Shown here: one piece after another, positions 37,506 through 60,591 of the stretch | Numbering within the stretch: the first letter of the stretch is position 1 | Layout: each line of letters begins with the position of its first letter | Assembly (NCBI RefSeq): GCF_001314325.1 | Contig: NZ_CP009429.1 | Span: 1,178,501 to 1,242,500 of the forward strand | Source of the DNA: Sphingopyxis macrogoltabida | Lineage (GTDB): Bacteria; Pseudomonadota; Alphaproteobacteria; Sphingomonadales; Sphingomonadaceae | Direction of reading: 5' to 3' | Length of the DNA: 64,000 bases | Translations under genes and position numbers: made by a program | Notes under the pieces: generated by a model | Told to the model about the DNA's origin: nothing | The model's input: the letters and a program-made list of their open reading frames with translations, nothing else | Database searches by the model: none

Positions 37506-37520
37506 GGGGTTCCCGGCTTC

Positions 37521-40601: not shown

Positions 40602-40860
40602 AGTTTTGCTTCAACTCCTGATGCATAATGAGATCATGGTCGATGCCTCCTCGGGCACGCCAAAGCTGCGACACTCATGCATCGGCGCCGACCGCAAGGC
40701 ACCTTGTAGATTCACAAGGTCCGCTGGCGGCATTCTGCACTAGAAGGCGATCGAACTCTTGTGCGAACGCAGCCGTCGGCAAACGACATTGGCGCACTGT
40801 CGGCACTGCTCGCACGCGGCTATGGTCGGCGCAAACAACAGAGGAGATGCCTCGGGCATT

Positions 40861-42910: not shown

Positions 42911-42973
42911 GCGTGACGAAAGGCGCTTCGCTGGTCCAGCGACCGACTAACGTATCCCGGAACGTGCGAACGT

Positions 42974-44089: not shown

Positions 44090-44103
44090 CGCCGCTCTCC
44101 AAC

Positions 44104-44838
44104 TCAGGCGCTGGCGGTGGCGATCGCCTGCGCATAACGGCGGTCGGTCGCTTCCCAGTCGAGGTTCTTGAACCACGCGTCGATATACCTGGCGGCTTGG
44201 GTGCCGTAGTCCATGTGAAAGCTGTGTTCATACATATCGAGCGCGAGCAGCGGTATGCCGGCCGCAGCGCCGTGCATGTGATCCCAAGCCCAATGATTGT
44301 TGAGCGAGCGCGTGTGGACGTTGTAAGCGAGGATTGTCCAGCCAGAGCCGCCCGCAAGGCTCATGCCGGTGCGGCGGAATTCCGCCTCCCATGTCGCGAA
44401 CGAGCCGAAGGCGGCGTCAATGGCGTCGCGGACCGAACCGGCCGCCCGGCCGTCGCCGCCCAACCCGTCGAAGTAGATTTCATGCAGCACCACCGAGCCG
44501 GTACGGTGCAGTTCCTCGCGTTTGAGGCCGCCGTAGATGGCAGGCGGCGCTTCGGTATCGGCGAGCGCGGCGGCCAGCCGTGGCCGCAATGCGTTCAGCG
44601 TCTTGACCGAGCCGGCATAGTTGTTCTCGTGGTGCGACGTGATCAATCGCTCGGACAAGCCCTCAAGCCTGGCCGGATCGAACTTGAGCGGCTTGATTTG
44701 ATGGTTGCCGGCAAAGGCGGGGACGGTCGACGGCGTGGCGACCGGCGTCCGGGCGGAGGCTTCGTTGATCGTCATGGCGGCGGCTCCTATGCCTAGGGTT
44801 GCGATTGCACTGCGTCGGGAGAGATTGTCGATCGTCAC
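44104..44838 (-). CDS. chrC: Exported Fe/Mn-type superoxide dismutase of the chromate operon (ChrC)
   Basis: The 244-residue SOD-family protein has an N-terminal export signal containing twin arginines (SRRSAIATLGIGAAAM). SOD segments visible are ITSHHENNYAGSVKTLN, AGGSGWTILAYNVHT and LLALDMYEHSFHMDYG, the last holding the metal-ligand Asp and His. It differs from the common DVWEHAYYLDY form. The name chrC follows chrBAC clusters in other bacteria, where a SOD copes with superoxide made during chromate reduction. Confidence 0.88.
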   Translation of the reverse strand: MTIDNLSRRSAIATLGIGAAAMTINEASARTPVATPSTVPAFAGNHQIKPLKFDPARLEGLSERLITSHHENNYAGSVKTLNALRPRLAAALADTEAPPAIYGGLKREELHRTGSVVLHEIYFDGLGGDGRAAGSVRDAIDAAFGSFATWEAEFRRTGMSLAGGSGWTILAYNVHTRSLNNHWAWDHMHGAAAGIPLLALDMYEHSFHMDYGTQAARYIDAWFKNLDWEATDRRYAQAIATASA

Positions 44839-44895
44839 ATTCGGTCCTTTCCAATATGATTGATTAGGCTGCGTAAGAGTGACGGTGCGTCGCGA

Positions 44896-46143
44896 TCATC
44901 CGAACAGGACGAGGCCCGCCCCCGCCGCGGCGAGAACAACCCACAGGATCGTCGTTTTGGCCTTGAACACGTAAAGGAGCGCGAGGGCGACGGCGAAGAT
45001 CGCGAGCGGGATCACCACGCCGGGCACGTTCACGAGAGTCTTTTGCCCTAGTTCCAGCGTCGTGGCGGCGATCAGCCCGACGACCGCTGCTGATATTCCC
45101 TCTAGGAAGGTCTTGATCTTTTCGTTGTCCACCAGCCGTTCAAGCTGGTCATGAAAGAACAGAGAAAAGCTGAATGCCGGCAGGAAGATGCCGATCGTCA
45201 TCACGATCGCTCCGAGTGGGCCGCCGCCGAAATATCCGATGAACGTCGAGAAGATGATCAGGGGTGCCGGCAGAATCCCCGATAGGGCGAGCCCGTCGAG
45301 GAACTGCGCATCCGTCATCCATCCATTGCCAACCGCATCGGCACGCAGGAACGGGATGACTGTGTAGGCCCCGCCAAAGGTGAGGAGCCCGGCCTTGAGG
45401 CCCGAGATGAAAAGATCCAGCAGCGACGGTTCTTGGTTTGCGACGGGTTGCGCCGAGACCGCATCTCCACCAACCGGACCGGCGAAAGTGACCCAGGCGA
45501 AGTAGAGCCCGAGCCCGACGAGCACGGCCATGAGCAGGCCGGCCGTCACCCGCTGACGGCGCGTCGCGAACATATAGACGAGGCCCGCGATCGGCAGGGT
45601 GAGCCAGAACGGCGTGCCGACGAGGGCCGCTAGGCCGGCGACGCCCGCGATACCCCAAAGCCAGCGGTCGAGCAGGATGTGACCGCCAATCCGGTGCACG
45701 GCGCGCACGATCAGGGCGATGACGGCCGGTTGCACTCCGAGAAATGCCGCGGTTGCGGCGGCAGTCTGCATGATCCCGGTGGAGAGATACAGCCAGGACA
45801 GCGCGAACATTAGGACAAAGCCCGGCATCATGAATCCCAGGCCTGCAAGAAGACCGCCGAGCTTTCCTTTAGGAAGCGTGCCGAAGAAGACGCATAGCTC
45901 GTGAGCCTCCGGACCGGGGAGCACCTGATACACGGCTAGGATGCGGTTGAACCTGGCACTTGAGACCCAGTGTTCCTCGTCGACCAACTCGCGGCGGATC
46001 ATGGCGATTTGGGCGATCGGGCCACCCCATGCCAGGAAACCGAACCGCAAGAACTTGGCGAAGATCTGTGCATACGAAAGCTGCGGCAAAATGCCTTGAC
46101 CTTCCGCAGAACCTACAGCCTCGCTCGGTACATTTGTCTGCAT
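44896..46143 (-). CDS. chrA: ChrA chromate efflux transporter
   Basis: Inner-membrane CHR-family antiporter, 415 residues built of two homologous halves. Half one begins FLRFGFLAWGGPIAQIAMIRRE and half two FISGLKAGLLTFGGAYTVIPFLR; both carry the G-GG-P/Y pattern conserved in the family. About ten to twelve membrane spans are present. It lies downstream of chrB. Confidence 0.95.
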   Translation of the reverse strand: MQTNVPSEAVGSAEGQGILPQLSYAQIFAKFLRFGFLAWGGPIAQIAMIRRELVDEEHWVSSARFNRILAVYQVLPGPEAHELCVFFGTLPKGKLGGLLAGLGFMMPGFVLMFALSWLYLSTGIMQTAAATAAFLGVQPAVIALIVRAVHRIGGHILLDRWLWGIAGVAGLAALVGTPFWLTLPIAGLVYMFATRRQRVTAGLLMAVLVGLGLYFAWVTFAGPVGGDAVSAQPVANQEPSLLDLFISGLKAGLLTFGGAYTVIPFLRADAVGNGWMTDAQFLDGLALSGILPAPLIIFSTFIGYFGGGPLGAIVMTIGIFLPAFSFSLFFHDQLERLVDNEKIKTFLEGISAAVVGLIAATTLELGQKTLVNVPGVVIPLAIFAVALALLYVFKAKTTILWVVLAAAGAGLVLFG

Positions 46144-46214
46144 TCACCACGTTCCTCAAGCTATAACAGTCATCTCTCGGCCGAGGGCCGAGTGCCTTGC
46201 GCTGACTCCCGACT

Positions 46215-47168
46215 TCACGGGTTTTGCCGGGTGAAGTAGGCGTAGAAGCCATCGAGCGCGTCGCCGGCACCGGCGATGCGCTGGAGATCGTCATCGAACG
46301 TCGCGCACACGCCTGACAGCATCGCGCTGAGTCCCGGCGTTTCCGGCCGCTCAAACTTGTCGTCGCCGATGTCGAGGTCGTGGATGATCTCCCCGATCGC
46401 GGCTAATCCCGGATCGCCGTCCAGCTCGGCGCGTAGCAGCAGGGTCTCGAAGCTGCACCGATCGCCCTCATGGGTGAACTCGGCATCGGTCATATCGAAG
46501 CGCAGCTCGCCGGCATCGGACGTGTAGCTCCTGCCATCGACGAACTTGAAGCTCGCGTGGGGGTCGATGAATCGTCGGATCAGCCAAGCGCAGGCGATGC
46601 GATCGACGTGGACGCCGCGCCGCGTCACCCAGACGCGATGCTTGAGGTCAGCGGGCGACACCGCAGCCGCTTCGCCTGTGCGGCCGACGTCGGGATGGGC
46701 GTAACGCTTCTCGTCCAAATCCCGCAGCGCCGCCTCGGCACCTTGACGACCGTGCGCGCCAAAGAAGTCGAGCCGGACAATCTCAGAAAGCCGTCGCTGG
46801 AGTTTTGAGATCTCGGTCCCCGACGCCGGCCCAGTGTCGAGCAACTGCCGTGCGGCTTGGGCCAGCTCGTCATAATCGGCATCCCGCGCAGCGTCGAAAA
46901 GCTGGCGGAGCTCAACGTCGCTCTGGCCTTCGATCATCTGCGCGTCGATCAGCACCGCCTCGCCGCCGCTGGTCGTGATCTCTGCCAGCAGGTCGCGAAA
47001 TGCGGTTTCGTTCTCCTCGCGACGGGGGAGCACATGAACAGCGTTCTTGAGCGGCACTGCGCCAATCGCCTGCAAGCGGCGCCAGATTTTCACACGCAGA
47101 TAGGGCGGCTTCGCAGGGATTTGGTGCAGCAATGCTAGCCAATGCTCGGAGTCTTGCGAAGCGTCCAT
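46215..47168 (-). CDS. chrB: ChrB chromate resistance/regulatory protein
   Basis: This 317-residue ChrB protein has an N-terminal helical region (PYLRVKIWRRLQAIGAVPLK) and a C-terminal domain with VTRRGVHVDRIACAWLIRRF and FTHEGDRCSFETLL. ChrB has been described as a chromate-sensing regulator of chrA. The ATG at 47168 lies 12 bases downstream of a perfect inverted repeat, which may be its operator. Confidence 0.94.
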   Translation of the reverse strand: MDASQDSEHWLALLHQIPAKPPYLRVKIWRRLQAIGAVPLKNAVHVLPRREENETAFRDLLAEITTSGGEAVLIDAQMIEGQSDVELRQLFDAARDADYDELAQAARQLLDTGPASGTEISKLQRRLSEIVRLDFFGAHGRQGAEAALRDLDEKRYAHPDVGRTGEAAAVSPADLKHRVWVTRRGVHVDRIACAWLIRRFIDPHASFKFVDGRSYTSDAGELRFDMTDAEFTHEGDRCSFETLLLRAELDGDPGLAAIGEIIHDLDIGDDKFERPETPGLSAMLSGVCATFDDDLQRIAGAGDALDGFYAYFTRQNP

Positions 47169-47180
47169 AACGCATATGTA

Positions 47181-47201
47181 TCATTTCCGATGTTGAAATG
47201 A
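47181..47201. promoter_or_regulatory. Inverted repeat upstream of chrB, candidate operator
   Basis: TCATTTC-N7-GAAATGA is perfectly symmetrical and lies 13-33 bases upstream of the chrB start in a locally AT-rich patch. By position it is a likely regulator site for the chrB-chrA-chrC operon. The binding protein is not known; ChrB itself is the obvious candidate. Confidence 0.55.
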
Positions 47202-47336
47202 AACACGTATATCTCCATCCTGCAACGGTTCAGGAAGGGTGCGGATTGCGGGCGAAGCGCAAGCGACGTTCGACGGCGACGATCGCTGGCTCGTTTCGGT
47301 GTTTGGCGGCGCTACGGTAGTAGGAACAACGGGATG

Positions 47337-47391
47337 TATTCGTTATGTTTATCCTGCACGGGGCACCAAATTCCGCCGCCGGCCGCCGTTT
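47337..47391 (+). repeat. Module-edge repeat, copy A
   Basis: The core TATTCGTTATGTTTATCC is followed by a GC-rich tail GGGGCACCAAATTCCGCCG. It matches copies B (53993) and C (59131) in the same orientation, and weaker similarity extends about 80-100 bp further right (ATCGTAGGCACGGCGG). It lies between chrB and the Argonaute gene. The surrounding 337-bp gap has no supported gene. Confidence 0.7.
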
Positions 47392-47505
47392 GTGCGCGTC
47401 AGCCGCACAGGCTACGATCAGCGAAAACTCAGTGTTAACACGATCGTAGGCACGGCGGCCATCGACGGCAAAAAGTTCGAATCCTGTGGGTGCAACGAAC
47501 TTTCA

Positions 47506-48921
47506 CTACATGAAGAATCGGAATTGGTAGGGTGTGCTGCCTAGATTCGTCATGCGCTTGAGGACGCGCGCCAGCACCTTCGCATAACTCATCGTTACGG
47601 GTAGCGGATCATACAGCCCGTCATTGTTCCAGTTCATCTTCGACAAGGCGAGCGCCGCGCGGGCGCTGTCGTCCCACGTGCCGTGCCCGGCATGGCGGAC
47701 AAGTCGGATCGGACGCGGCGTGCCGCGCTGACCCTGAAAATAGGTTTTCGGTCCCAAAGTCTCCACGGCACCGTGCATCCACAGGAGTGCCTCGCGCTCG
47801 CCAAGCCCGATCAGTGAGCCACGCTTAATTGGAAACGCCGCCGCCTTACCTCCCGAATTGGCTTGGTCGCGTTCCCAACGCGCGCCGCGCCAGCCCACAT
47901 CCTCGACCACCTGAATCAAATCGACCGCCTCGCACAGCGGTAGTGCCTCGAAGCAGCCGAGCACTTCTGCGTCTTTGAACTCGGTCGATTTGTGGACCAT
48001 GACCCGGCGCGGCGAGCGTCCGCCATGCCGGTGACGATACAGCGTCATCGACCGCGTGATGACACGGAACATCTCAGCCTGCGATAAAAAGGGATTATCG
48101 CGTTGCACCTGCACGTCGGCGGTATCGTAGGCGATAAACTCCAAGCCGGCGCCCTCCGCGTCGAACACCTGGCTGCAACAAGTCACAAATCGCGGTTTGT
48201 CGGCACCGTTCGACCGCACCGCATAGGAAATGCCGACATAGGCTGTTTCTGGGTCCGCGTCGGCTAGCTTCCAGGGAACGCCGCCGGCCTTGGCATACAG
48301 CGCCAGCCCGACTCGCCACATCACGCTCGCACGGCAGCGATAAGCGAGCGCCTTGTCTTCGCGCACGATCTGGATCGGCATCCCGCGCGCGGCCGTATAG
48401 GCTTTGAGATGATCGTGGAGATCGAAATCGTCCCCCGCGCCGTAGAAGCCACGCTCCCACCGCTGCGGTAGGTAGATGAACAAGACATCGAAGTCGCTGC
48501 GGAACGCCTCAAGGGGCTGGATCGCACGAACGAGCTGTTCGGCGAGCAACACGTGCGGCATCGCCGATTGTGCCATCTCGCTCTCAAACGATCCGTCCAG
48601 CTCGACACGGCATTTCTTGGTTGCCGCCGTCACGCGCATGTCGAACACGGTATTGAAGCCCGGCCAATCCGGCAGATAGTCGGTTCGCTCGACCGGGCGC
48701 ACGCTCTGGCTCAGCTCACGCATGAATGCGAACAGTCGCTCGGACTCGCCCTTCGGGGCCAGCGTCGCTACCCGGATCGGCGATTGCACCAATCCGCGCG
48801 AATGGGGGCCGAACCGCTTGAGCCCGCGCAGCGGATGAATGTCCCGCTCGCTCGTTCGCTCGGGATGGAACACCAGCTCGGGTTCGGGATACCATATGGT
48901 CGGGGCGATCTCGCTCGTCAT
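47506..48921 (-). CDS. Short prokaryotic Argonaute (MID-PIWI) of a SPARSA-type system
   Basis: The 471-residue protein is of the short pAgo class, which has MID and PIWI domains only. It opens with WYPEPELVFHPERTSERDIHPLRGLKRFGP, broken here as PELVFHPERT and HPLRGLKRFGP, typical of short pAgos. PIWI-like segments include VTCCSQVFDA, RRVMVHKSTEFKDAEVLGCF and the very C-terminal PYQFRFFM. Short pAgos are generally catalytically inactive guide-RNA sensors of invading DNA. The ATG at 48921 overlaps the SIR2-APAZ stop (ATGA), and the length matches Geobacter-type short Ago (about 470). The partner encoded upstream is the effector. Confidence 0.92.
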   Translation of the reverse strand: MTSEIAPTIWYPEPELVFHPERTSERDIHPLRGLKRFGPHSRGLVQSPIRVATLAPKGESERLFAFMRELSQSVRPVERTDYLPDWPGFNTVFDMRVTAATKKCRVELDGSFESEMAQSAMPHVLLAEQLVRAIQPLEAFRSDFDVLFIYLPQRWERGFYGAGDDFDLHDHLKAYTAARGMPIQIVREDKALAYRCRASVMWRVGLALYAKAGGVPWKLADADPETAYVGISYAVRSNGADKPRFVTCCSQVFDAEGAGLEFIAYDTADVQVQRDNPFLSQAEMFRVITRSMTLYRHRHGGRSPRRVMVHKSTEFKDAEVLGCFEALPLCEAVDLIQVVEDVGWRGARWERDQANSGGKAAAFPIKRGSLIGLGEREALLWMHGAVETLGPKTYFQGQRGTPRPIRLVRHAGHGTWDDSARAALALSKMNWNNDGLYDPLPVTMSYAKVLARVLKRMTNLGSTPYQFRFFM

Positions 48922-50651
48922 GGCTGCACCAGCTTGGAGAAGGCCGTGTTCTTCCCGACTGCGAAGCGAGCATCGATCCCGTCGCCAATCGACAGCGCCA
49001 GAAGCGCTTCGCCGGCAAGGCGCTTTGCCCAAAAATCGATAAGCCGATCGAGATCACGATTATAGCGCTTCACCGTCCGTTCGCGCGCGAAGTCGGCGGT
49101 GATCGCTTTGGTCGCGTCCGTGACACCCTCAAACACGATCTTTGGATCAAGCAGCAGCCAAAGACCGTCGTCTGCCCAGTCAAGCCGGACCCCGACCCCC
49201 TCGTGCCATTTCAGGTCAGGGTGTTTGGGCACGGTGCCAGTCGTCTGATGAGTTATCGCGCGAAGCCCATCCCATGCGCTGTCGGCGGGATCTACTGGCA
49301 CGAGCAAATCAGCGCTGCGGCGGCGGATCGCACGAACATTCTTGGCGGCACACAGCGCCTCTACCAAGGCATCGCGTAGCAGGCCGCGTTCGCCGGACTC
49401 ATAGCGCAGGCGCCGCTTCTCGAAGGTGGCCAGATCGAACGCAGTGATTCCGAACGGGTCGAACACTCGACGGAACTCGGCATCGCTGCCGAAACCGAGC
49501 ACGCCCGCTTGCGTGCGCGTCACGATCAGGCGCGCGTTCGCCTCGGCGACCGCCGAACGCGCCGCTGCGACACCCTCGATCGTGCATACCAGCTTGCGGC
49601 AATTGGCCGGGATGGTGACGGCAAGCCCGTTGAGCCGAATGAGGGGCCAGCCCCGCTGGCCCGAGGGCTCGGGAGCGCCCGACACGCGCGACCGTCCTGT
49701 TGCCAGCGCGTTGAGAGCGGATGTGTCGAGCGCGGGCAGCAGCCGCACGAGATCACGTAATATCTCATCGAAGCTCTCAATCCGCACCAGCCCGCACTCA
49801 ACGCCCGCGTCGCTGGCGCGCTGGAGAAGTCGGATGACCCGCCCGAGCGGTGGATCGCTACCGCGATGCAGCCAGAACAGTCCGCCAGGATAACCGCCCG
49901 GCTGATTGAGCGCCGTTTCAAGCGCGTCCATCACTGAATCGTCGCGTCCGCTGTAGCCGGCGACTACGAGGCCGGATCGTCGGCAGGCATCCACGAGCTG
50001 CTGACGAAGCGCCGCATCCTGCTGGCGCAGCTCATCGGTCGTGTTCTTAAGCCGACGCGAGCGGAAATCGCCGTGCAGCTTCACTGCGATGGGCCATTTT
50101 TGCGCGCCGATCAATTGCCCCGCCAGTTCCGGAGCGTCGAGTGCAACGACGCTCAACGTGCCCGTTGTGCCATACGTTCTCGCGCAGGCATCTTCGATCA
50201 AGTGGTCGAAATTGGTCGTCCAGACGAGCTGAGTGTGGCCCGCTTTTAGAAGCGAGGCGAGGGCAAGATGGCCATAGGCCAGCTTCGCGCCGCTAATCAT
50301 GCCTTGAATAAAAGTCGTGCGATCGCGCTCCACCGGGTAGGTTGCTTCGAAGAGCGCCGCGTATTCATCCGGTGAACCCGGCGACGGTAGTCGCTCGGAA
50401 CTCGCAATGTGCGAGTCTAACAGCGCGCGGATCGCAGGATTACCGAGATCGGCGACACTCTGCGGCGACGCCTTGCGTTGGGCAACGAACAACGTTTGCT
50501 TGAATTGCCAGATCATATCCCAAGCGCTGGGGATGCCGGCTGAAACCGACGCACCCGCGCCAAGGAGCCACATTAATTGGCCGGGGCGCAGCGCGAAGCG
50601 CCGCACAAAGTCATCGCTCGATAGCTCGCTCGGGCTCGTTATGCTCTCCAT
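48918..50651 (-). CDS. SIR2-APAZ effector of the short-Argonaute system
   Basis: The 577-residue protein fuses an N-terminal SIR2 NADase (residues about 25-280) to an APAZ domain. The SIR2 motifs are LLGAGASVSAGIP (NAD loop), VWTTNFDHLIEDA (catalytic Asn), AVKLHGDFR (catalytic His) and VVAGYSGRDDSVMDAL. The APAZ part (about 330-577) mimics Argonaute N/PAZ-like regions and binds the short Ago. In characterised SPARSA systems, activation by guide-directed recognition of plasmid or phage DNA depletes NAD+ and kills or stalls the cell. All key residues look intact. Confidence 0.92.
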   Translation of the reverse strand: MESITSPSELSSDDFVRRFALRPGQLMWLLGAGASVSAGIPSAWDMIWQFKQTLFVAQRKASPQSVADLGNPAIRALLDSHIASSERLPSPGSPDEYAALFEATYPVERDRTTFIQGMISGAKLAYGHLALASLLKAGHTQLVWTTNFDHLIEDACARTYGTTGTLSVVALDAPELAGQLIGAQKWPIAVKLHGDFRSRRLKNTTDELRQQDAALRQQLVDACRRSGLVVAGYSGRDDSVMDALETALNQPGGYPGGLFWLHRGSDPPLGRVIRLLQRASDAGVECGLVRIESFDEILRDLVRLLPALDTSALNALATGRSRVSGAPEPSGQRGWPLIRLNGLAVTIPANCRKLVCTIEGVAAARSAVAEANARLIVTRTQAGVLGFGSDAEFRRVFDPFGITAFDLATFEKRRLRYESGERGLLRDALVEALCAAKNVRAIRRRSADLLVPVDPADSAWDGLRAITHQTTGTVPKHPDLKWHEGVGVRLDWADDGLWLLLDPKIVFEGVTDATKAITADFARERTVKRYNRDLDRLIDFWAKRLAGEALLALSIGDGIDARFAVGKNTAFSKLVQP

Positions 50652-50795
50652 CCGCCCATGCCTAACCGATCCACAAGCCTTCGCCAGCAGATTTTGTTCT
50701 CTAATGGTTCTCTAGGCTCAACCTTGTGATCGGCAGGTGCGGGAAGCGACGCCACCGTTGTAAGCGCCTGGGCTTCCGAGCAGCCGTAGCGCAGG

Positions 50796-51410
50796 TCATT
50801 CGGGGGGTGGTGGCAGCAGAGGAGGCGCCTCGTAGGCTTCTAGCTGCCACGGCCCCTGGTAGTTCTCAATGATGCCTTCGGTCGGCACGGGCATGCCGGC
50901 AATGAGCGCGATCTGCCCGAGACACCGGCTCAGGTGTCCGCGTAAGATTTCGAGGCCGTCGAAATAGGCTTGGCGCACGTCCGGCGGTCGATGAAACTCG
51001 CCGAAACGTGGATGCGGGGGCGCATCCTTGTCGCGCCGCAACAGCTCCTCGTAAGTCATAAACTGTCGAATACCAGTCGCCATCGCATCGAGCAGAAGGA
51101 ACAGCGGTCCGTCCTGCAACTCGGCGAGTTCCACCTCTTTGTCGACGATCAACTGGCGGATTTCCTTGAGCGAAGTGAGAGCTCTCTCGATGCAATCGTC
51201 GCAACATTCCCACGCAGATAGGACGCGCCGATCGCGCAAACGGAGGACGATCTCGCGCGCCACACGGCGCTCGCGATCTTTAGGGCTGACCGCAATGCTG
51301 ATGAAAGGCAAGTTCAAGGTGACGTCACCTATCCGGCCAGCGACTTGGCGGCGAGCGCGGGCGAGGAGATCGGTCAGATCGAACTTGAAGGGGATATCGC
51401 CACTTCGCAC
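50796..51410 (-). CDS. Unrecognised 204-residue protein of the defence module
   Basis: I do not recognise the family. The protein starts at a GTG 3 nt after the stop of the interrupted gene upstream, so the two form a coupled pair. It appears helical, with a cysteine cluster (SAWECCDDCIERAL), a charged helix (KEIRQLIVDKEVELAELQDG) and a proline-rich tail (EAPPLLPPPPE). It has no signal peptide or membrane span. The gene lies 144 bp upstream of the SIR2-APAZ gene in the same direction. It could be the antitoxin, methylation-like or sensor partner of the putative nuclease; this is inference. Confidence 0.7.
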   Translation of the reverse strand: MRSGDIPFKFDLTDLLARARRQVAGRIGDVTLNLPFISIAVSPKDRERRVAREIVLRLRDRRVLSAWECCDDCIERALTSLKEIRQLIVDKEVELAELQDGPLFLLLDAMATGIRQFMTYEELLRRDKDAPPHPRFGEFHRPPDVRQAYFDGLEILRGHLSRCLGQIALIAGMPVPTEGIIENYQGPWQLEAYEAPPLLPPPPE

Positions 51411-51413
51411 GGC

Positions 51414-52302
51414 TCAGGCCTCGCCCGGCAGGGTAATTGATGCAGCGAGAGCCGCCCCAATGGGCCCCGATCGGCGTTCGAGGAAATAGCGGACGCGATC
51501 GTCATTGCTGTCATCGAACTGCTGTCCAACCTGACAGGTCAGCAGCAGATCGGCAGCCCAGGTTTCGAGCGGCCAATCCCGCCCGACGCAGGCGGATTTC
51601 AGCAGGCTGAAGGTGGGAGATTGGCCGTCATTGAGTTCGACAAGAGCGCGGTGGAGGTTGTCGGCATCGACCACCCGATTTCCGACCGGCATGTCGCCAA
51701 CGCGGATTCGTTTTCGCAGGGGGTAGGTAACTGCGTAGGGAAGCTCAGGCGGTGCGTAGAGCAGGTAGAAGACGGCCTTGCCGAAATCCCGATTGAGCGT
51801 GTCGATCAGTTCGACCTGTCGGTGTCCAGCCTGAATTGCGGCGAAGGTGCAGGTTTCGTCGAAGCTGTAGGTTCGGTGGAGTGCGGCGGCTGCTTGCTGC
51901 CCATCGCGGCGGATGAACGCATTCATGCCATGAAGGAAACCAATTTCATCTTCGTCTTCGACATCATGGTTAGTCGGAAAGAGACGTTTGGATTGGAGCA
52001 GGCCAATCTTCTTCGCCACCAGCTTGTCTTGTCGATAGACGAAGACGAGGATCGCAATATCCGCCGTTTCCCAACGCCGGCGTTGCGGAAAATCCCAATC
52101 CCAATGGGGAGCGCCTAGGCGCCGCAAACCACCGATGTTGTGAGTATCCATGCGGATGATCGCGCCCGAAGGCAGGAGCGTCGGCGCACTGTTGGGGATC
52201 AGCGCTTCAATCAATCCGTCATCGAGCGATGTCTCGCGGATATTGGGGAGATTGGCCAGGCGCTCACATACGTGGCGGTTTGCGTCCGCGAAGACGCCAC
52301 GG
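51414..52302 (-). pseudogene. Putative D...QxK nuclease gene, 3' part, interrupted by the IS
   Basis: This is the main part of a gene whose first 22 or so codons are now on the far side of an IS (53725-53791). Joining the two parts with one copy of the 8-bp target duplication gives an unbroken 948-bp frame (315 residues) starting MRGTRLNPWPVIPADVVAWF. The central region reads WETADIAILVFVYRQDKL then KKIGLLQSKRLFP, which resembles the D-x(n)-QxK core of Mrr-like PD-(D/E)xK nucleases. I do not recognise the family otherwise. It heads a likely operon with the 204-residue protein and perhaps SIR2-APAZ and Argonaute. An in-frame TGA lies just inside the IS, so any residual product must start internally (a TTG at 52214). 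Confidence 0.75.
52295..52302. repeat. Target-site duplication CGCCACGG, left side of IS copy 1
   Basis: These eight bases are repeated exactly at 53725-53732 on the other side of the element. An 8-bp duplication is normal for IS256-family insertion. Confidence 0.9.
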
Positions 52303-52352
52303 GGTCGCGTCCGTCAAGGTGGTGTAATTTCGGCTGTGGCCGTGGGCCATCG

Positions 52353-53567
52353 TCAGGCGGCTTTGGCGGTGATGTGTAGGGGCTGATTTTCCTCCTCGAT
52401 CATGGGTTGGTTGAGTTCGGCCATGCCTTCGATCTGCATGTATCGGTGCTGGAGCTGCCACTCGTCGTTCTGCTCCATCAGCACAGCCCCGACGAGGCGG
52501 ATGATGCTGTCTTCGTTCGGGAAGATTCCGACGACGTCGGCGCGGCGCTTGACCTCCTTGTTGAGCCGCTCGAGCGGATTGGTTGAGTGTAACTTCGTGC
52601 GGTGCTGGGTGGGAAAGCCGGTGTAGGCGAGCACGTCGGTTTCGGCCTCGTCCATGCAGGCGCCGAGCTTGGGCCAACGGGTGCGCAACTGGTCGGCGAC
52701 CTGTCGCCAGACCTGCGTTGCGCTTTTCTGATCGGGCTGCAGGAAGACCTGGCGGATCGCGGCGGCGACGACAGTGTTCTGGCCCTTGGGCACATAGGAC
52801 AGGGCATTGCGCATGAAGTGCACCCGGCAGCGCTGCCAGGTGGCGCCCATGACGCGGGTGATCGCGCCCTTGAGGCCCTCGTGAGCATCGGAGATGACCA
52901 GCTTCACGCCGGTAAGACCGCGCCGAACAAGGTCCTTCAGGAAGTCGGACCAGAAGACCTCCGCTTCCGAGGGGCCGATATGCAGGCCGACGATCTCGCG
53001 CCGGCCCTCGGTGTTGACGGCCATGGCGATTATTGCGGCAACGCTGATGATCCGCCCGCCTTCGCGTACCTTGAGATAGGTGGCATCGAGCCAGAGATAC
53101 GGCCATTCGCCGGTGAGCGGGCGTTTCAGAAAGGCATGGACGCGCTCGTCAATGTCCTTGCAAAGCTTGGAGACGGTGGACTTGGAGATGCCGGTCATGC
53201 CCATGGCCTGGACGAGTTCATCGACCCGCCGGGTGCTGACCCCGCCGATCCACGCTTCCTGGATCACCGCAACCAGCGCTTTCTCGACCATCTTGCGGGG
53301 CTCAAGGAAGCCCGGAAAGTAGGACCCAGCACGCAGCTTGGGGATTTTCAGGTTCAGCGTGCCTACCCGGGTATCCAGCGAACGGTCGCGATAGCCGTTG
53401 CGCCAGGTCGCGCGCTCGCTGCTGCGTTCGTGGCGACCCGCGCCGATCAGGCCATCAACGTCGGCCTCCATGATCAGCTGCAGCACGTTCTCGGCGATGG
53501 TGCGCAAAAAATCCGGTTGGCCGCCCTTCGCAGCAAGCTCTTCGATCAGTAATCTGTCCTCGGTCAT
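52353..53567 (-). CDS. IS256-family transposase, copy 1
   Basis: This is a 404-residue DDE transposase of the mutator/IS256 family. Catalytic residues appear in WLDATYLKV (first Asp), LVISDAHEGL (second Asp) and TNPLERLNKEVKRR (Glu). I use the ATG giving MTEDRLLIEE, which follows AGAGGAG; an upstream in-frame GTG lies within a palindrome and is unlikely. Identical to copy 2. Confidence 0.94.
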   Translation of the reverse strand: MTEDRLLIEELAAKGGQPDFLRTIAENVLQLIMEADVDGLIGAGRHERSSERATWRNGYRDRSLDTRVGTLNLKIPKLRAGSYFPGFLEPRKMVEKALVAVIQEAWIGGVSTRRVDELVQAMGMTGISKSTVSKLCKDIDERVHAFLKRPLTGEWPYLWLDATYLKVREGGRIISVAAIIAMAVNTEGRREIVGLHIGPSEAEVFWSDFLKDLVRRGLTGVKLVISDAHEGLKGAITRVMGATWQRCRVHFMRNALSYVPKGQNTVVAAAIRQVFLQPDQKSATQVWRQVADQLRTRWPKLGACMDEAETDVLAYTGFPTQHRTKLHSTNPLERLNKEVKRRADVVGIFPNEDSIIRLVGAVLMEQNDEWQLQHRYMQIEGMAELNQPMIEEENQPLHITAKAA

Positions 53568-53645
53568 CGGGAACTCCTCTTCGTCACGGTTGAAGTGTGC
53601 AAACTCCACCATAACGATGAACCCGGTGGCCACCAGCGACGCCGC

Positions 53646-53677
53646 ATTCCGGGGTGGGGCATGCCCCACCCCGGAAT
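53646..53677. repeat. Perfect 32-bp palindrome inside IS copy 1
   Basis: ATTCCGGGGTGGGGCA and its complement form a perfect palindrome between the IS end and the transposase ribosome-binding site. In RNA entering from outside it would fold and could shield the transposase from read-through translation. The same palindrome is at 59217-59248 in copy 2. Confidence 0.7.
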
Positions 53678-53724
53678 ACACCATCGCCTACACCGGAAAT
53701 TACACCACGAGCGCGGACGCTAAC

Positions 53725-53732
53725 CGCCACGG
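53725..53732. repeat. Target-site duplication CGCCACGG, right side of IS copy 1
   Basis: Exact partner of 52295-52302. Confidence 0.9.
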
Positions 53733-53791
53733 AACCAGGCAACAACGTCGGCGGGTATCACTGGCCAAGGATTCAATCGCGTTCCCCTCAT
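53725..53791 (-). pseudogene. Displaced 5' end of the interrupted nuclease gene
   Basis: On the minus strand an ATG at 53791 opens MRGTRLNPWPVIPADVVAWF and runs into the target duplication at the IS edge. Precise excision of the IS would join it in frame to 52294 and onward, completing 315 residues. The original promoter of the defence operon should lie just beyond, around 53800-53900, and is now separated from its genes by 1.4 kb. Confidence 0.72.
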
Positions 53792-54286
53792 CTGCCGAGG
53801 TAATTGCACTACGCAATCCGACCAAGCGGTATCTACGGCGGCGGCAGAGGCAACTTGCCATCGGGAGGCTCGAAAGTGTGGGCCGTTGATCCTACCCCCG
53901 ATGCTTCTCGAATAATCAGCGGCGTCGCACTACGCCATAGGGCGGCTACAGGCGCGCGGCGGCGGTTCTATAGGAGTGCAAACGGCGATGTGTATTCGTT
54001 ATGTTTATCCAGGGCGGGGCGCCAAATACCGCCGTGTGCCGCCGTATTCCACTAAAGGTCCGCTGCAAGCACGCCAGCGTAGTAGGCCAGGCGGTCATCG
54101 GCGGTACGGGAGTTCGCATCACCTACACGGAGGCAGCTGTGCGGCCATTCCGGACCTCGGCGAGTGCTGCCGAGCTTCCCAGAATGCGAATTCGCTTGTA
54201 AGCGTCTGAGATAGATGGATAGCGCGCGTTTGCGGCGACCCTTGGCAATGCGGCAACCGTCGTGGCCCAATCATCGTAATCGACTG
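53792..54286. other. 495-bp intergenic region between the defence and mercury modules
   Basis: No gene is supported. It should contain the promoter of the interrupted defence gene at its left end. It also contains repeat copy B at 53993-54047. The short plus-strand frames here have no ribosome-binding site or recognisable product. Confidence 0.45.
53993..54047 (+). repeat. Module-edge repeat, copy B
   Basis: TATTCGTTATGTTTATCC is followed by GGGCGGGGCGCCAAATACCG; an upstream AGTGCAAACGGCGA is shared with copy C. It lies between the Argonaute module and the mercury operon, in the same orientation as copies A and C. Confidence 0.75.
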
Positions 54287-55735
54287 TTAGCCGGCGCAGC
54301 AGGATAGCTTGGACACGTCCTTGCCGAATCCTTGTGCCGCAAGCTTCAGCCCCTCGACGGTCGTCAAATAGGGAAAGATTGTCTCGCCCAATTCCTTGGT
54401 GGTCATCCCGAACTTCAGCGCTAGCACCATCGTCTGGATGCTGTCAGCTCCCTCGGGCGCGAGGATCTGCGCGCCCAGCAGACGATCGGATTGCTTATCG
54501 GCGATAAGCTTGATCAATCCCCGCGTGTCGCGGGCCGCGAGCGACCGCGGTACCTGGTCGAGCGGCACTACTGATGCTTTCGTCGCAAAGCCTCGCGCCT
54601 TGGCCTGGGCCTCGGTCAGGCCGACGCCAGCAACCTGCGGATCCGTGAAGACGACCCATGGCATCGTTGCATTGTCATAGGCGAGGCTGTCGCCGTTGAG
54701 AGCGTTAAGCGCGGCGAGCTTCGCACCATAGGCCGCCATGTAGACGAACTGGTCACGCCCGGTCACGTCACCAGCGGCGTAAATGCCGGATTTCGATGTA
54801 CGCATGCGCTCGTCGACGACGACTCCACCATTCGTCGCCACCTTGACGCCCGCTGCACCGAGGCCAAGGCCGGCCGTGTTGGGCGTGCGGCCTGTCGTCG
54901 CCAGTACCTGTTCGGCGATCAGCGTTTCCGCTTTGCCGTCCACCTCGATGGTGAGCGCGACCTGGCCCTCGCGGCGTTCGATCCGGGAATAGGCCAGGCC
55001 CGTGCGAACCGTGACGCCTTCATCGGCCAGATAGCGGGTCAGCGCTTCGGCGATTTCCGGCTCCGCCTCCGGAAGCAGCCGGGAGCGGGTGACGAGAGTT
55101 ACGTTGGTCCCGGTGCGTGCAAACATCTGGGCGAGCTCGCAGCCGATATAGCCGCCGCCGATGACCAGAAGCGAGCGTGGGTGCTCGGTGAGCTCCAGTG
55201 CAGTCGTGCTCGTCAGCCAAGGCACGTCGGCCAGCCCTGGAATATCCGGCACGGCGGGCGCGGAGCCGGTCGCGATGATGATCTTTCGGGCGGCAATGAC
55301 CCGGTCATCCACGGCGACGCCATTCCGATCCAGACGGGCCGCGCCTTCTAGATAGGTGACGCCGTCATACTCGGGCAGAAGGTCGATATATTTCTTCTGC
55401 CGAAGCGTGGCGACGAGATTATCCTTGGCCGCGATCAGCTGGCGCCAGTCAGTGACGCGAGCCTCTCCGGCGAGACCCGGAAAACGGCTTGCGGCGCCGG
55501 CGCCGTGAAGGGCTTCGGCTGCACGGATCATCGTCTTCGACGGAACGCAGCCGACGTTCACGCAGGTGCCGCCGATGGTGCCGTGGCCAATCAGTGCGAC
55601 GCTGGCACCCTGCTCGGCGGCGGTGATCGCGGCGGAAAAGCCGGCCGATCCGGCGCCGATCACGGCGATGTCGAAAGCTCGGCCTTCGAACCCGCCGGTA
55701 GTGCAGCAGTCACGGGCGTCCACTTGATTGTCCAC
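54287..55735 (-). CDS. merA: MerA mercuric reductase, without N-terminal HMA domain
   Basis: Flavoprotein that reduces Hg(II) to volatile Hg(0) with NADPH. It is 482 residues from the GTG at 55735 (AGAAGGAA upstream). The FAD-binding AVIGAGSAGFSAAI, redox pair GGTCVNVGCVPSK near residue 55, NAD(P)-binding VIGGGYIGCELAQMF and the C-terminal vicinal cysteines KLSCCAG that collect Hg(II) are all present. The N-terminal metal-binding NmerA domain is absent, as in many core-type MerA. It is the last gene of the mer operon. Confidence 0.96.
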   Translation of the reverse strand: MDNQVDARDCCTTGGFEGRAFDIAVIGAGSAGFSAAITAAEQGASVALIGHGTIGGTCVNVGCVPSKTMIRAAEALHGAGAASRFPGLAGEARVTDWRQLIAAKDNLVATLRQKKYIDLLPEYDGVTYLEGAARLDRNGVAVDDRVIAARKIIIATGSAPAVPDIPGLADVPWLTSTTALELTEHPRSLLVIGGGYIGCELAQMFARTGTNVTLVTRSRLLPEAEPEIAEALTRYLADEGVTVRTGLAYSRIERREGQVALTIEVDGKAETLIAEQVLATTGRTPNTAGLGLGAAGVKVATNGGVVVDERMRTSKSGIYAAGDVTGRDQFVYMAAYGAKLAALNALNGDSLAYDNATMPWVVFTDPQVAGVGLTEAQAKARGFATKASVVPLDQVPRSLAARDTRGLIKLIADKQSDRLLGAQILAPEGADSIQTMVLALKFGMTTKELGETIFPYLTTVEGLKLAAQGFGKDVSKLSCCAG

Positions 55736-55796
55736 TGTCGCATTCCTTCTATATTCATGGGGGCCGCGACTGTGGCGATGCCCCAAAAGGCATGTG

Positions 55797-57149
55797 TCAC
55801 ACCATTGAGCCGATGTCTGAGGCGTAGCTCGGATACGCGAAGATCACTGCCTTGATCTGGTTGGCGGTCAGGCCTGCCCCCATCGCCATGGCAAACAGGT
55901 TGATCTGTTCCTCGGCCCCCGGCCCCATCAGATGCGCGCCAAGGATTCGGCCGGTCTCCCGTTCGACAAGAATCTTGTAGCCCGTCCATTTCGCCCCGAC
56001 CCGCAGCGAAGAATACCAGCCCTGTGTCTTCTCGAAGTGGGTGTCGAACTTTAGTCCCTTCTCCCGCGCAGCCGTCTCCGACAGTCCGACCGTCGCAACC
56101 ATGGGAAGGGTGAAGACGACGCTCGGGATCGGCGGGTAGGACACGCTGCGCTCGTCGTGGCCGGCCAGCAGGTTCTTGGCGGCGATCCGGCCTTCGTAGG
56201 CTGAAACCGGGGTCAGGTTGGGGCCGCTGTCGGCGCAGTCTCCGGCGGCGAATATGTTTGGATTGGTGGTGCGCATCGAGGCGTTGACCTTGATGCCACG
56301 CGGTCCATGCTCCACCCCGGCGGCGGCGAGGTTCAGTCCGTCGATATTGGGCACACGCCCGGTGGCGTGGACCACGGTATCGCAGGTAACCACCTTGATG
56401 CCGCCCGGCGTCTCGACCGAGACGGCGAGTTCGCCGCCCTGTTTCTCGACCTTCAACACTTTCGCTTCGGTCCGCAGAGCGACTCCGAGTTCGGCGGTGG
56501 CCTCGACCAGCATTGTGACAAGATCGGGATCGAAATTGCCGAGCGGCCGCTCCATCATCTCCAAGACCGTGACCTCGCTCGCACCGGCCCGTTTCGCGAT
56601 ATGGGCGAATTCCATGGCGATGAATCCGCCGCCGACAAAGACGACCCGGTCCGGCCGCTCCGGCAGGTCGAGGAAGTCGGTGCTGGTGATCAACAGCTCT
56701 TCGCCGGGGATGTTCAGCGTCATCGGCCGCGCGCCGGTGGCGATGTGGAAATGCCGCGCGCGCAGGCTTTCCCCGTTCAGCTCAATCGTGTCGGGGCCGG
56801 TGAACCGAGCGTCGCCGTGCAGCGTCGCGACGCCCGCTTTTTCAAGCCCGGTCTCGATGCGCCGCGGCATGGCGTCGGTGAAGCTGCGCTTGAAGGCCAT
56901 CATGTCCGGCCAATCGACAGAGATCTGAGCCTCGAGACCCTTGCCCTTCAGGTTCTGCGCCCAGTCAACGCCCTCGGTCACCGCCACCAGCATTTTCTTG
57001 GGGTCGCAGCCGCGCAGAGCGCACGTTCCGCCGTAGGGCAGGCTGTCGATGCTGGCGACCTTCCAGCCCGCCGCAGCAGTCATCCGGGCAACCCCATTGC
57101 CGCCGGTTCCGGCCCCGATCACTATCAGGTCGAAGTCATATGCGCTCAT
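55797..57149 (-). CDS. Class I FAD/NAD(P) disulfide oxidoreductase of the mer operon
   Basis: This 450-residue glutathione-reductase-like flavoprotein has FAD motif LIVIGAGTGGNGVARM, redox-active pair GGTCALRGCDPKKML near residues 40-50 and the NAD(P) motif VFVGGGFIAMEFAHI. Unlike dihydrolipoyl dehydrogenase it lacks the C-terminal HPTxxE signature, and unlike MerA it lacks the C-terminal cysteine pair; it ends YPSYASDIGSMV. It may supply reduced thiols or reduce another ligand during mercury stress. The ATG at 57149 follows GAGGAGG. It sits between merF and merA. Confidence 0.88.
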   Translation of the reverse strand: MSAYDFDLIVIGAGTGGNGVARMTAAAGWKVASIDSLPYGGTCALRGCDPKKMLVAVTEGVDWAQNLKGKGLEAQISVDWPDMMAFKRSFTDAMPRRIETGLEKAGVATLHGDARFTGPDTIELNGESLRARHFHIATGARPMTLNIPGEELLITSTDFLDLPERPDRVVFVGGGFIAMEFAHIAKRAGASEVTVLEMMERPLGNFDPDLVTMLVEATAELGVALRTEAKVLKVEKQGGELAVSVETPGGIKVVTCDTVVHATGRVPNIDGLNLAAAGVEHGPRGIKVNASMRTTNPNIFAAGDCADSGPNLTPVSAYEGRIAAKNLLAGHDERSVSYPPIPSVVFTLPMVATVGLSETAAREKGLKFDTHFEKTQGWYSSLRVGAKWTGYKILVERETGRILGAHLMGPGAEEQINLFAMAMGAGLTANQIKAVIFAYPSYASDIGSMV

Positions 57150-57225
57150 GCGTGTCCTCCTCATCGGATCGGGTCGGCTAATCTTGTCGGCGCGGCAGTT
57201 CCGGGCTCGACAATCATGATCTCGT

Positions 57226-57429
57226 CTAGCGCCGTTGCCGGCGCCACATGGCGTAGGCGGTCAGACCGACGAAGAATAAGAGCGCGGGCAGCAGGACATA
57301 GTCGAGGTAGCCGACGATCGCCGCCAGGCCGACCACGCCCGCCAGCACCACAAGCACCGGCGTGAAGCAGCAAAGCGCTACTATCGCCGTCCCGATAAGC
57401 CCGGCGCCGAGCAGCGTCCGGTCTTTCAC
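57226..57429 (-). CDS. merF: MerF mercury transporter
   Basis: The 67-residue membrane protein has two helices and the vicinal cysteine pair in IVALCCFTPVLVVLAGVVG, followed by GYLDYVLLPALLFF, a close match to MerF. The start chosen is the GTG at 57429 (VKDRTLLGAG), 5 nt after the merP stop. It moves Hg(II) across the inner membrane. Confidence 0.92.
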   Translation of the reverse strand: MKDRTLLGAGLIGTAIVALCCFTPVLVVLAGVVGLAAIVGYLDYVLLPALLFFVGLTAYAMWRRQRR

Positions 57430-57434
57430 CCGCG

Positions 57435-57770
57435 TCAGATCTTCGTCGCGCGCGCCGGATAGCCCGCGTTGGTTGAGGCCCTGGCGATGGCGGCAATCGT
57501 CGTCTTGGACGCGTCGAACCTGACCGTCGCGGTCTTCGCATCGAAATCGACATTGACGGCCTGGACGCCTGTGACGCCTGCAATCGCCTTCTTCACGGTG
57601 ATTGGGCATGTGGCGCAGGTCATGTTCTCGATCGCGAAGGTCGCGGTCTGAGCGCGGGCAGGCGCCGCTTTGGCCGGTTGCGCGGCAAACGGCGCGAAAG
57701 CCGCCGTGGAGATGATTCCCGCACTGGTCAGCGCAACTGCGCCGGCGGCAATGATGAAGGGTCGTTTCAT
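57435..57770 (-). CDS. merP: MerP periplasmic mercury-binding protein
   Basis: The 111-residue protein has a signal peptide and an HMA fold with the metal-binding motif ENMTCATCPITVKKA. It passes Hg(II) from the periplasm to MerT/MerF. The ATG at 57770 is preferred; the open frame continues upstream only as a shadow of merT. Confidence 0.95.
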   Translation of the reverse strand: MKRPFIIAAGAVALTSAGIISTAAFAPFAAQPAKAAPARAQTATFAIENMTCATCPITVKKAIAGVTGVQAVNVDFDAKTATVRFDASKTTIAAIARASTNAGYPARATKI

Positions 57771-57802
57771 GAGTATATCCTCTCTAGGTAGAACGGGGCG
57801 GC

Positions 57803-58201
57803 TCAGTAGAAGTACGGAGCCCACCAATCGATCGTCAGCGCCAGGGCGATCAGGACGGTTGCGATCCAGAGCGCCGACTTGGTGATGATCGAAGAGCGCG
57901 GCCGAGCGCAGTAGGAGCCGTCGACGCATTCCGGCGCGGTCCGGAAATAGACGTGCCAGAAGCCGAGCGCGATGAAGACCAGCGTCACCGCCGCGAAATA
58001 GGGCTTGAAGGGTTCGAGGGCGGTGAGATTGCCGATCCAGGCTCCAGACACACCAAGGCTTAGAAGCACGAGCGGGGCGAGGCAGCAGGATGACGCCAGC
58101 ACCGCGCCCATTACTCCACCCGCTGCAAACCATCCCTTCCGGGCGGCTGGCCGGGAAGGCGCCGGATCCAAGCCTGCTTCATACACTTTGACATCGTCCA
58201 T
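57803..58201 (-). CDS. merT: MerT mercury transporter
   Basis: The 132-residue inner-membrane protein has three helices. The first carries the cysteine pair VLASSCCLAPLVLLSLGVSG; a second cytoplasmic pair lies in APECVDGSYCARPR. It is the first gene of the mer operon, about 30 nt from the -10 box, with AAGGTG as ribosome-binding site. Confidence 0.95.
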   Translation of the reverse strand: MDDVKVYEAGLDPAPSRPAARKGWFAAGGVMGAVLASSCCLAPLVLLSLGVSGAWIGNLTALEPFKPYFAAVTLVFIALGFWHVYFRTAPECVDGSYCARPRSSIITKSALWIATVLIALALTIDWWAPYFY

Positions 58202-58231
58202 CGCGAATCACCTTGGCTGTCGTTCAAGAAC

Positions 58232-58262
58232 CATATAAGGTCTGTATGGACTACAGGCTCAA
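58232..58262 (-). promoter_or_regulatory. MerR-controlled mer promoter with 19-bp spacer
   Basis: On the minus strand, TTGAGC (-35, 58262-58257) and TATATG (-10, 58237-58232) are separated by exactly 19 bases, the overlong spacer characteristic of MerR-activated promoters. Within the spacer the perfect dyad CTGTA-N5-TACAG (58242-58256) is the expected MerR operator. Confidence 0.82.
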
Positions 58263-58275
58263 GAGGTATTTTAAC

Positions 58276-58689
58276 GTGACCGCCGGGAATCCTGAGGAAG
58301 GGCTGCACCGCGCCAAGCTGGCAAAGCATACGGGCTGCAATCTCGAGACCGTCCGCTATTACGAGAAGATCGGCATGATGCCCGATCCCCCGCGCACTGC
58401 CGCCGGCTATCGCGTCTATAACGAAGGACACGTATCGCGGCTCCGCTTCATCCTACGCGCGCGAGAGCTCGGCTTCTCCATCGAAGATATCCGGGGCTTG
58501 CTGCGTCTCGTCGACAGGGGCACCCAGACCTGCGCCGAAGTCCAGCAGCTTACCGAGGCTCATCTTGCCGACGTACGCAATAAAATCCGGGACTTGAAGC
58601 GCATCGAAGCTGTCCTGGCCGCGACCGCCGCACAATGTTCGGGGGAAGTCGTTCCTGATTGCCCAGTTCTCGATGCGCTTGCCTCATAG
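58276..58689 (+). CDS. merR: MerR mercury-responsive regulator
   Basis: The 137-residue regulator starts at the GTG 58276, which follows AAGAGG and lies beyond the promoter region. The winged HTH is LAKHTGCNLETVRYYEKIGMM; a dimerisation helix follows. The three Hg-binding cysteines appear in QTCAEVQ and QCSGEVVPDCPVL. It diverges from the mer operon it controls. The longer frame from 58213 would overlap the merT promoter and is less likely. Confidence 0.93.
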   Translation: MTAGNPEEGLHRAKLAKHTGCNLETVRYYEKIGMMPDPPRTAAGYRVYNEGHVSRLRFILRARELGFSIEDIRGLLRLVDRGTQTCAEVQQLTEAHLADVRNKIRDLKRIEAVLAATAAQCSGEVVPDCPVLDALAS

Positions 58690-59130
58690 TGCCTCCCAAA
58701 GGAGCCACGACCACCTGGCGGGCTAGCGGCTAACCGCGGTTGGCCGATCGGCGCGCATGTGCGGCCAAGAACCGCTTGCTATTCGCTAATTGCGGCGGCC
58801 GCAGGCTCGCCACACTATCCGCCCCATTCGGCGCCGCCGTGCTGGCGCTCTGCCTCTTAGATAAAGAGAGGCGACAAGTATCGGCCAAAAGACATGGGTC
58901 GATTCTGCAGGGGGCGCCGAATTGTCTCCTGCAGGTAGCCGGTCGTTAGGTGTCGGCGACGGCCAATCGCCTTTTTGAACGCCCGGTACTTGCGCGCGGC
59001 AAACTCAACCCGGCCTGTCGGTATACGGCCACCTCTCGCCGTTAGCAGTAGCGTCTACGCACAGATGCGGCGGTCATTTGCGGAGAGCGGCGGCCTCAGG
59101 CGTTGCTAGGGTAGTGCAAACGGCGACACA
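58690..59130. other. 441-bp region without a supported gene
   Basis: This is GC-rich sequence between merR and repeat C. A 69-codon frame at 58740-58949 has no recognisable product or ribosome-binding site. Nothing further is identified. Confidence 0.4.
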
Positions 59131-59169
59131 TATTCGTTATGTTTATCCGGCGGGGCGCGCCAAATACCG
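59131..59169 (+). repeat. Module-edge repeat, copy C, interrupted by IS copy 2
   Basis: TATTCGTTATGTTTATCC followed by GGCGGGGCGCGCCAAATACCG, then the IS; the repeat resumes after the IS at 60592 with AAATACCGCCG. It is preceded by AGTGCAAACGGCGA as in copy B. Orientation is the same as copies A and B. Confidence 0.75.
59162..59169. repeat. Target-site duplication AAATACCG, left of IS copy 2
   Basis: Repeated exactly at 60592-60599. Confidence 0.9.
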
Positions 59170-59216
59170 GTTAGCGTCCGCGCTCGTGGTGTAATTTCCG
59201 GTGTAGGCGATGGTGT

Positions 59217-59248
59217 ATTCCGGGGTGGGGCATGCCCCACCCCGGAAT
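59217..59248. repeat. Perfect 32-bp palindrome inside IS copy 2
   Basis: Same palindrome as at 53646-53677, centred at 59232/59233, between the IS end and the transposase start. Confidence 0.7.
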
Positions 59249-59326
59249 GCGGCGTCGCTGGTGGCCACCGGGTTCATCGTTATGGTGGAGTTTGCACACT
59301 TCAACCGTGACGAAGAGGAGTTCCCG

Positions 59327-60541
59327 ATGACCGAGGACAGATTACTGATCGAAGAGCTTGCTGCGAAGGGCGGCCAACCGGATTTTTTGCGCACCATCGC
59401 CGAGAACGTGCTGCAGCTGATCATGGAGGCCGACGTTGATGGCCTGATCGGCGCGGGTCGCCACGAACGCAGCAGCGAGCGCGCGACCTGGCGCAACGGC
59501 TATCGCGACCGTTCGCTGGATACCCGGGTAGGCACGCTGAACCTGAAAATCCCCAAGCTGCGTGCTGGGTCCTACTTTCCGGGCTTCCTTGAGCCCCGCA
59601 AGATGGTCGAGAAAGCGCTGGTTGCGGTGATCCAGGAAGCGTGGATCGGCGGGGTCAGCACCCGGCGGGTCGATGAACTCGTCCAGGCCATGGGCATGAC
59701 CGGCATCTCCAAGTCCACCGTCTCCAAGCTTTGCAAGGACATTGACGAGCGCGTCCATGCCTTTCTGAAACGCCCGCTCACCGGCGAATGGCCGTATCTC
59801 TGGCTCGATGCCACCTATCTCAAGGTACGCGAAGGCGGGCGGATCATCAGCGTTGCCGCAATAATCGCCATGGCCGTCAACACCGAGGGCCGGCGCGAGA
59901 TCGTCGGCCTGCATATCGGCCCCTCGGAAGCGGAGGTCTTCTGGTCCGACTTCCTGAAGGACCTTGTTCGGCGCGGTCTTACCGGCGTGAAGCTGGTCAT
60001 CTCCGATGCTCACGAGGGCCTCAAGGGCGCGATCACCCGCGTCATGGGCGCCACCTGGCAGCGCTGCCGGGTGCACTTCATGCGCAATGCCCTGTCCTAT
60101 GTGCCCAAGGGCCAGAACACTGTCGTCGCCGCCGCGATCCGCCAGGTCTTCCTGCAGCCCGATCAGAAAAGCGCAACGCAGGTCTGGCGACAGGTCGCCG
60201 ACCAGTTGCGCACCCGTTGGCCCAAGCTCGGCGCCTGCATGGACGAGGCCGAAACCGACGTGCTCGCCTACACCGGCTTTCCCACCCAGCACCGCACGAA
60301 GTTACACTCAACCAATCCGCTCGAGCGGCTCAACAAGGAGGTCAAGCGCCGCGCCGACGTCGTCGGAATCTTCCCGAACGAAGACAGCATCATCCGCCTC
60401 GTCGGGGCTGTGCTGATGGAGCAGAACGACGAGTGGCAGCTCCAGCACCGATACATGCAGATCGAAGGCATGGCCGAACTCAACCAACCCATGATCGAGG
60501 AGGAAAATCAGCCCCTACACATCACCGCCAAAGCCGCCTGA
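59327..60541 (+). CDS. IS256-family transposase, copy 2
   Basis: 404 residues, identical to copy 1. The ATG at 59327 follows AGAGGAG at 59314-59320. The DDE residues (WLDATYLKV, LVISDAHEGL, NPLERLNKEV) are intact, so the element is probably active. Confidence 0.94.
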   Translation: MTEDRLLIEELAAKGGQPDFLRTIAENVLQLIMEADVDGLIGAGRHERSSERATWRNGYRDRSLDTRVGTLNLKIPKLRAGSYFPGFLEPRKMVEKALVAVIQEAWIGGVSTRRVDELVQAMGMTGISKSTVSKLCKDIDERVHAFLKRPLTGEWPYLWLDATYLKVREGGRIISVAAIIAMAVNTEGRREIVGLHIGPSEAEVFWSDFLKDLVRRGLTGVKLVISDAHEGLKGAITRVMGATWQRCRVHFMRNALSYVPKGQNTVVAAAIRQVFLQPDQKSATQVWRQVADQLRTRWPKLGACMDEAETDVLAYTGFPTQHRTKLHSTNPLERLNKEVKRRADVVGIFPNEDSIIRLVGAVLMEQNDEWQLQHRYMQIEGMAELNQPMIEEENQPLHITAKAA

Positions 60542-60591
60542 CGATGGCCCACGGCCACAGCCGAAATTACACCACCTTGACGGACGCGACC

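Follow-up and report, generated by a model that had tools for sequence, protein, structure and literature searches.

A predicted PD-(D/E)xK-like nuclease gene interrupted by an IS256-family insertion sequence on an integrative, conjugative-type element of Sphingopyxis macrogoltabida

Structure of the interrupted locus

The window analysed here is a stretch of 64,000 nucleotides from Sphingopyxis macrogoltabida (contig NZ_CP009429.1, positions 1,178,501 to 1,242,500, forward strand), and all positions below refer to it. It contains a minus-strand gene for a predicted PD-(D/E)xK-like nuclease that is split by an insertion sequence (IS) of the IS256 family. The 5′ piece (53733-53791, minus strand) comprises 19 full codons counted from the ATG at 53791 and is covered by homologues, and the 3′ piece (51414-52294, minus strand) retains a usual-start open reading frame (ORF) of 266 residues at 51414-52214. 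The IS (52303-53724, minus strand; 1,422 bp) lies between two perfect copies of an 8-bp target-site duplication, CGCCACGG, at 53725-53732 and 52295-52302 (no strand assigned), and occupies codons 20-23, near the 5′ end of the gene. Joining the flanks through one copy of CGCCACGG gives 59 + 8 + 881 = 948 nt, a multiple of three encoding 315 residues, with a single stop that is the final codon. The start codon is placed only to within about 11 codons, the candidates being the ATG at 53791, a GTG upstream, and a TTG that matches the usual M-x-P-W-P start of the family.

The transposase (52353-53684, minus strand; 443 aa) has the same orientation as the interrupted gene and matches Transposase_mut (PF00872) over residues 46-410 with an E value of 2.9e-127. 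The IS termini form inverted repeats identical at 23 of 32 positions, including an unbroken run of 13 bp. A target duplication of 8-9 bp is a hallmark of the IS256 family. The Mutator-type transposase, the duplication length, the imperfect terminal repeats and the size of 1.4 kb all agree with membership in this family, and no difference from it was seen. The host genome (5.75 Mb, 3 contigs) carries at least 37 full-length matches to the IS, each at 100% (rounded) identity; this count is a lower bound, 40 of 165 candidate matches having been scored. Among the 99 genomes of relatives searched, with the host counted, any match was found in 20, and a full-length copy at 100% occurs outside the host in four (G002, G013, G019 and G057). 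The IS copies make up about 1% of the host genome, which suggests a recent burst. A second copy of the same IS, at about 59168-60591, has the opposite orientation; with the copy at 52303-53724 it brackets the border of the mobile element described below and a stretch of oxidoreductase genes (53725-59168), which we take to be a mercury-resistance cluster. The one ORF tested in that stretch (54287-55786) is a Pyr_redox_2 protein.

Uninterrupted copies in other genomes

When the 3′ piece was used to search the species-genome collection, 14 loci were recovered. The exact empty site (a single CGCCACGG with 40 bp of flank to either side) is present in seven records (L011-L016 and L023), and the joined frame is therefore far beyond chance. 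In L011-L016 the gene is complete without a single difference, all 295 residues of the 3′ piece being encoded at 100% identity, and L023, which ends at a contig end, encodes residues 1-145 of that piece. In L017, L018 and L024, from a related lineage, the site is likewise uninterrupted, and its sequence is slightly different.

The six long loci come from six genera (Sphingomonas trueperi, an Erythrobacter metagenome-assembled genome, Sphingobium cyanobacteriorum, Prosthecomicrobium pneumaticum, Pacificimonas aurantium and Enterovirga aerilata). Over 8,886 bp, an identical set of five differences separates each of them from the window: one in a downstream gene for a 204-aa protein, one in a SIR2-APAZ gene, two in a gene for prokaryotic Argonaute (pAgo), and one further on. 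The interrupted gene itself has none. Over 300 bp in the opposite direction from the site, five long loci match the window throughout and L013 differs once. Because the other carriers are near-identical with none of these differences inside the gene, and because the host carries at least 37 IS copies at 100% (rounded), the insertion is young and the gene has not decayed. As an event, the insertion is ordinary and recent. The first-pass annotation of the window had proposed a gene recently split by an IS, with 948 bp free of internal stops and an exactly recoverable uninterrupted sequence, and had suggested a search for uninterrupted homologues. These points are borne out, and the recovered sequence exists in nature at the same empty site. 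In the genus of the host, a 66% homologue (L010/L077) is disrupted as well, by a single internal stop.

A family of predicted nucleases

The interrupted gene belongs to an unnamed family with 494 homologues; a second list holds 269, and the two may share entries. No Pfam family was matched at E values up to 5 by P0001, an intact homologue; no NCBIfam match was obtained for the family, and no PADLOC match for the 3′ piece. Membership in the Mrr family was considered and set aside as unsupported on these grounds. Hjc and RecU are Holliday-junction resolvases with a nuclease fold, and Mrr-like enzymes have a D...QxK site. In P0001 numbering, all 70 aligned sequences share D44, D98, Q120 and K122 without exception, and these residues (D44, D98, Q120-x-K122) probably make up the catalytic site. 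A structure model (pLDDT 86.7, pTM 0.87) contains a helix and strands in its predicted fold, which is probably PD-(D/E)xK-like; in a second-look comparison, 13 of the 16 highest-ranked VIA rows are Hjc, RecU or I-Ssp6803I, with middling Z scores. The highest structural match of the model is human Rep15, ranked over Hjc and RecU. In its predicted fold and in D44/D98/Q120-x-K122, the family may resemble PD-(D/E)xK nucleases such as Hjc, RecU and Mrr-like enzymes. It differs in having no sequence match to Mrr or any other Pfam family, and its proteins, at about 310 aa, include a long additional region.

At the N-terminus, F21, A24, E40 and D44 are invariant in the 50 homologues aligned, out of 120 listed, and no aligned homologue therefore lacks the N-terminal region. 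Past the IS, the TTG at 52214 is the first in-frame ATG, GTG or TTG codon. A product starting there would have 266 residues, 49 having been lost, and would be without E40 and D44; the nuclease-like protein of the interrupted copy is thus most likely inactive. The D...QxK pattern and the nuclease fold put forward in the first-pass annotation agree with the alignment and with the prediction, respectively, whereas the link that it drew to Mrr-like nucleases is not supported as a family assignment. It had also reasoned that homologues without the first 51 residues would count against a split gene, and none that is N-terminally short was found among those aligned. The figure itself needs adjustment: the 5′ piece holds 19 full codons only, and 51 is close to the 49 residues lost upon restart at TTG 52214.

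The mobile element and the neighbouring genes

The gene lies on a mobile element that spans about 17960-54024 in the window. The last stretch before its border is 53725-54024 (minus strand). The shared DNA stops near 54024 at TGGCGCCCC (TGGTGCCCC in L013), and past this point the seven loci compared differ. The opposite end of the shared stretch is a tRNA-Arg gene in all three genomes followed (G535, G536 and G537), with three different anticodons, and a gene for a large serine recombinase lies beside the tRNA-Arg end in L086, as in site-specific integration by a recombinase. In G536 the element measures about 44 kb (514975 to about 559200). The window also encodes a coupling protein of a type IV secretion system (25492-27465) and a VirB4-like protein (29333-32095). 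Because of the tRNA-Arg end, the serine recombinase and these two proteins, the carrier is a tRNA-Arg-integrated element of conjugative type, conjugation being predicted from its genes. Chromate genes on the element encode ChrB and a chromate transporter. The stretch 34200-52302 is common to genomes of several genera at about 100% identity, and the near-identical copies point to recent spread of the element among genera.

Downstream of the interrupted gene, and co-directional with it, a gene for a 204-aa partner (50796-51410, minus strand), predicted to be a helical bundle, starts 3 nt past the stop. The two genes are neighbours in L011-L019, L021 and L022; the partner was not found in L010, L020 and L025-L029. 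A precomputed PF20355 label on homologues of the partner was reproduced by neither hmmscan nor a genome search. After a gap of 144 nt follow a SIR2-APAZ protein of 577 aa (48918-50651, minus strand; PADLOC PDLC02401, E 1.8e-176) and a short pAgo (47506-49032, minus strand; PADLOC PDLC02377, E 1e-194), whose structural relatives are 8in8_B and 8in8_C. Part of the listed pAgo ORF lies within the 3′ end of the SIR2-APAZ gene, and the true start probably lies downstream of the listed one. The two genes are adjacent and are full-length relatives of the SPARSA complex of Geobacter sulfurreducens (8in8). SPARSA is an NAD-depleting, anti-phage Argonaute system and, with both of its genes full length, may still be working in this host. 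In contrast to SPARDA (9qbp), which consists of a nuclease-APAZ protein and a short pAgo, the window has APAZ on the SIR2 protein, with a separate upstream gene encoding the nuclease-like protein.

Contexts of the family and association with Argonaute

SPARSA directly follows the gene in the element of the window and in L017/L018. In a plasmid of Rubrobacter radiotolerans (L027, 2515-7056), a 34% homologue is directly followed on the same strand by a 1,142-aa SLFN_AlbA_2/RecG-C/pAgo protein, so that the family adjoins an Argonaute gene for a second time, here in a distant phylum. In L019, L021 and L022, the gene and its partner are present and SPARSA is absent at that place. A pAgo_I match was found in 16 of 385 genomes of the class, host included. 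The family and the partner are absent from the stretches read around the pAgo loci of the 15 other genomes (one of these being a 4.3-kb contig), as well as from the four plasmid SPARSA loci read, which differ in this from the element of the window. The nuclease-like gene and SPARSA are thus not constantly co-present. Since each occurs without the other, the gene and its partner are best regarded, from these gene arrangements, as neighbouring cargo of SPARSA rather than as proven subunits.

With near-identical loci counted once, a defence-type neighbour was observed in seven of 15 contexts: the group of the window, L017/L018, L020, L021, L022, L027 and L028. In L020, a gene of pP_pnuc (predicted pPIWI-associating nuclease, PF18165/PF18166) lies beside the family member on the opposite strand; the interrupted gene matches neither model. 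A type IIG-like methylase and PDC-S31 were found in L021, a DNA methylase in L022, and GajB about 6 kb from the family member in L028. Among the ORFs tested, the other eight contexts have no defence-type neighbour (L019, L025, L026, L029/L076, L010/L077, L078, L079 and L080), L025 having been judged from annotation alone, L078 from one ORF by Pfam alone, and L026 showing a weak mads_3 match only. Elsewhere family members are solitary among metabolic genes, as in L025, or occur in viral contigs.

Interpretation

We favour, with a probability of about 0.72, the reading that codons 20-23 of a cargo gene on an integrative, conjugative-type element were recently hit by an IS256-family element, and that this gene belongs to an unnamed family of predicted PD-(D/E)xK-like nucleases, likely acting in defence with a helical partner. 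The encoded protein would most likely be a metal-dependent DNA endonuclease, coupled with the small helical partner and serving defence against phages or plasmids. The first-pass annotation had called it a defence-module gene; the setting agrees, given the full-length SIR2-APAZ and short pAgo genes downstream, while the defence role itself is deduced from neighbours.

A nuclease for repair, Holliday-junction resolution or maintenance of mobile elements is the less probable, though most serious, competing explanation. It would suit the best nuclease-fold matches, which are the Hjc and RecU resolvases, and the members found alone among metabolic genes or in viral contigs, but the sparse distribution of the family (two of 385 class genomes, host included) and the defence-type neighbours in seven of 15 contexts are unlike a housekeeping role. 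Somewhat less likely again is a role of the nuclease-like protein and its partner as accessory subunits of an Argonaute system, in which they would cut DNA after the pAgo module detects an invader. The co-directional arrangement with SPARSA in the window and L017/L018 would fit this, as would the homologue directly ahead of the Schlafen/RecG-C/pAgo fusion in Rubrobacter; against it stand the loci with gene and partner and no SPARSA, the solitary family members, and the lack of family or partner at any of the 19 other Argonaute loci read.

The interruption could also be viewed as a reversible switch, in which precise loss of the IS reactivates the gene in part of the population as adaptive control of a costly nuclease. 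Precise excision of IS256 is known from staphylococci, and with a perfect duplication and both gene halves undamaged, restoration of the gene is possible in principle. However, in a 5.75-Mb genome that carries at least 37 copies of the IS, insertion into a dispensable cargo gene requires no selection, and the gene is present once in the host genome, that copy being the interrupted one; we consider such a switch very improbable.

Significance

The favoured reading, a recent insertion into a cargo gene for a likely defence nuclease, draws attention to a large family for which the searched libraries (Pfam, NCBIfam and PADLOC) contain no model and whose predicted activity is easily assayed. More speculatively, and with low probability, the family could represent undescribed defence nucleases of the PD-(D/E)xK type, closely coupled to a helical partner in one branch. 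On at least two occasions it would have become linked with Argonaute modules, namely SPARSA in Alphaproteobacteria and the Schlafen-type pAgo fusion of Rubrobacter, and it would act together with them; if so, an NAD-depleting Argonaute system would gain a DNA-cutting arm. Overall, almost the same element occurs in several genera with an intact gene and in this host with an interrupted one, the SPARSA genes being full length in both versions, which provides a natural pair for testing a new defence-type gene.
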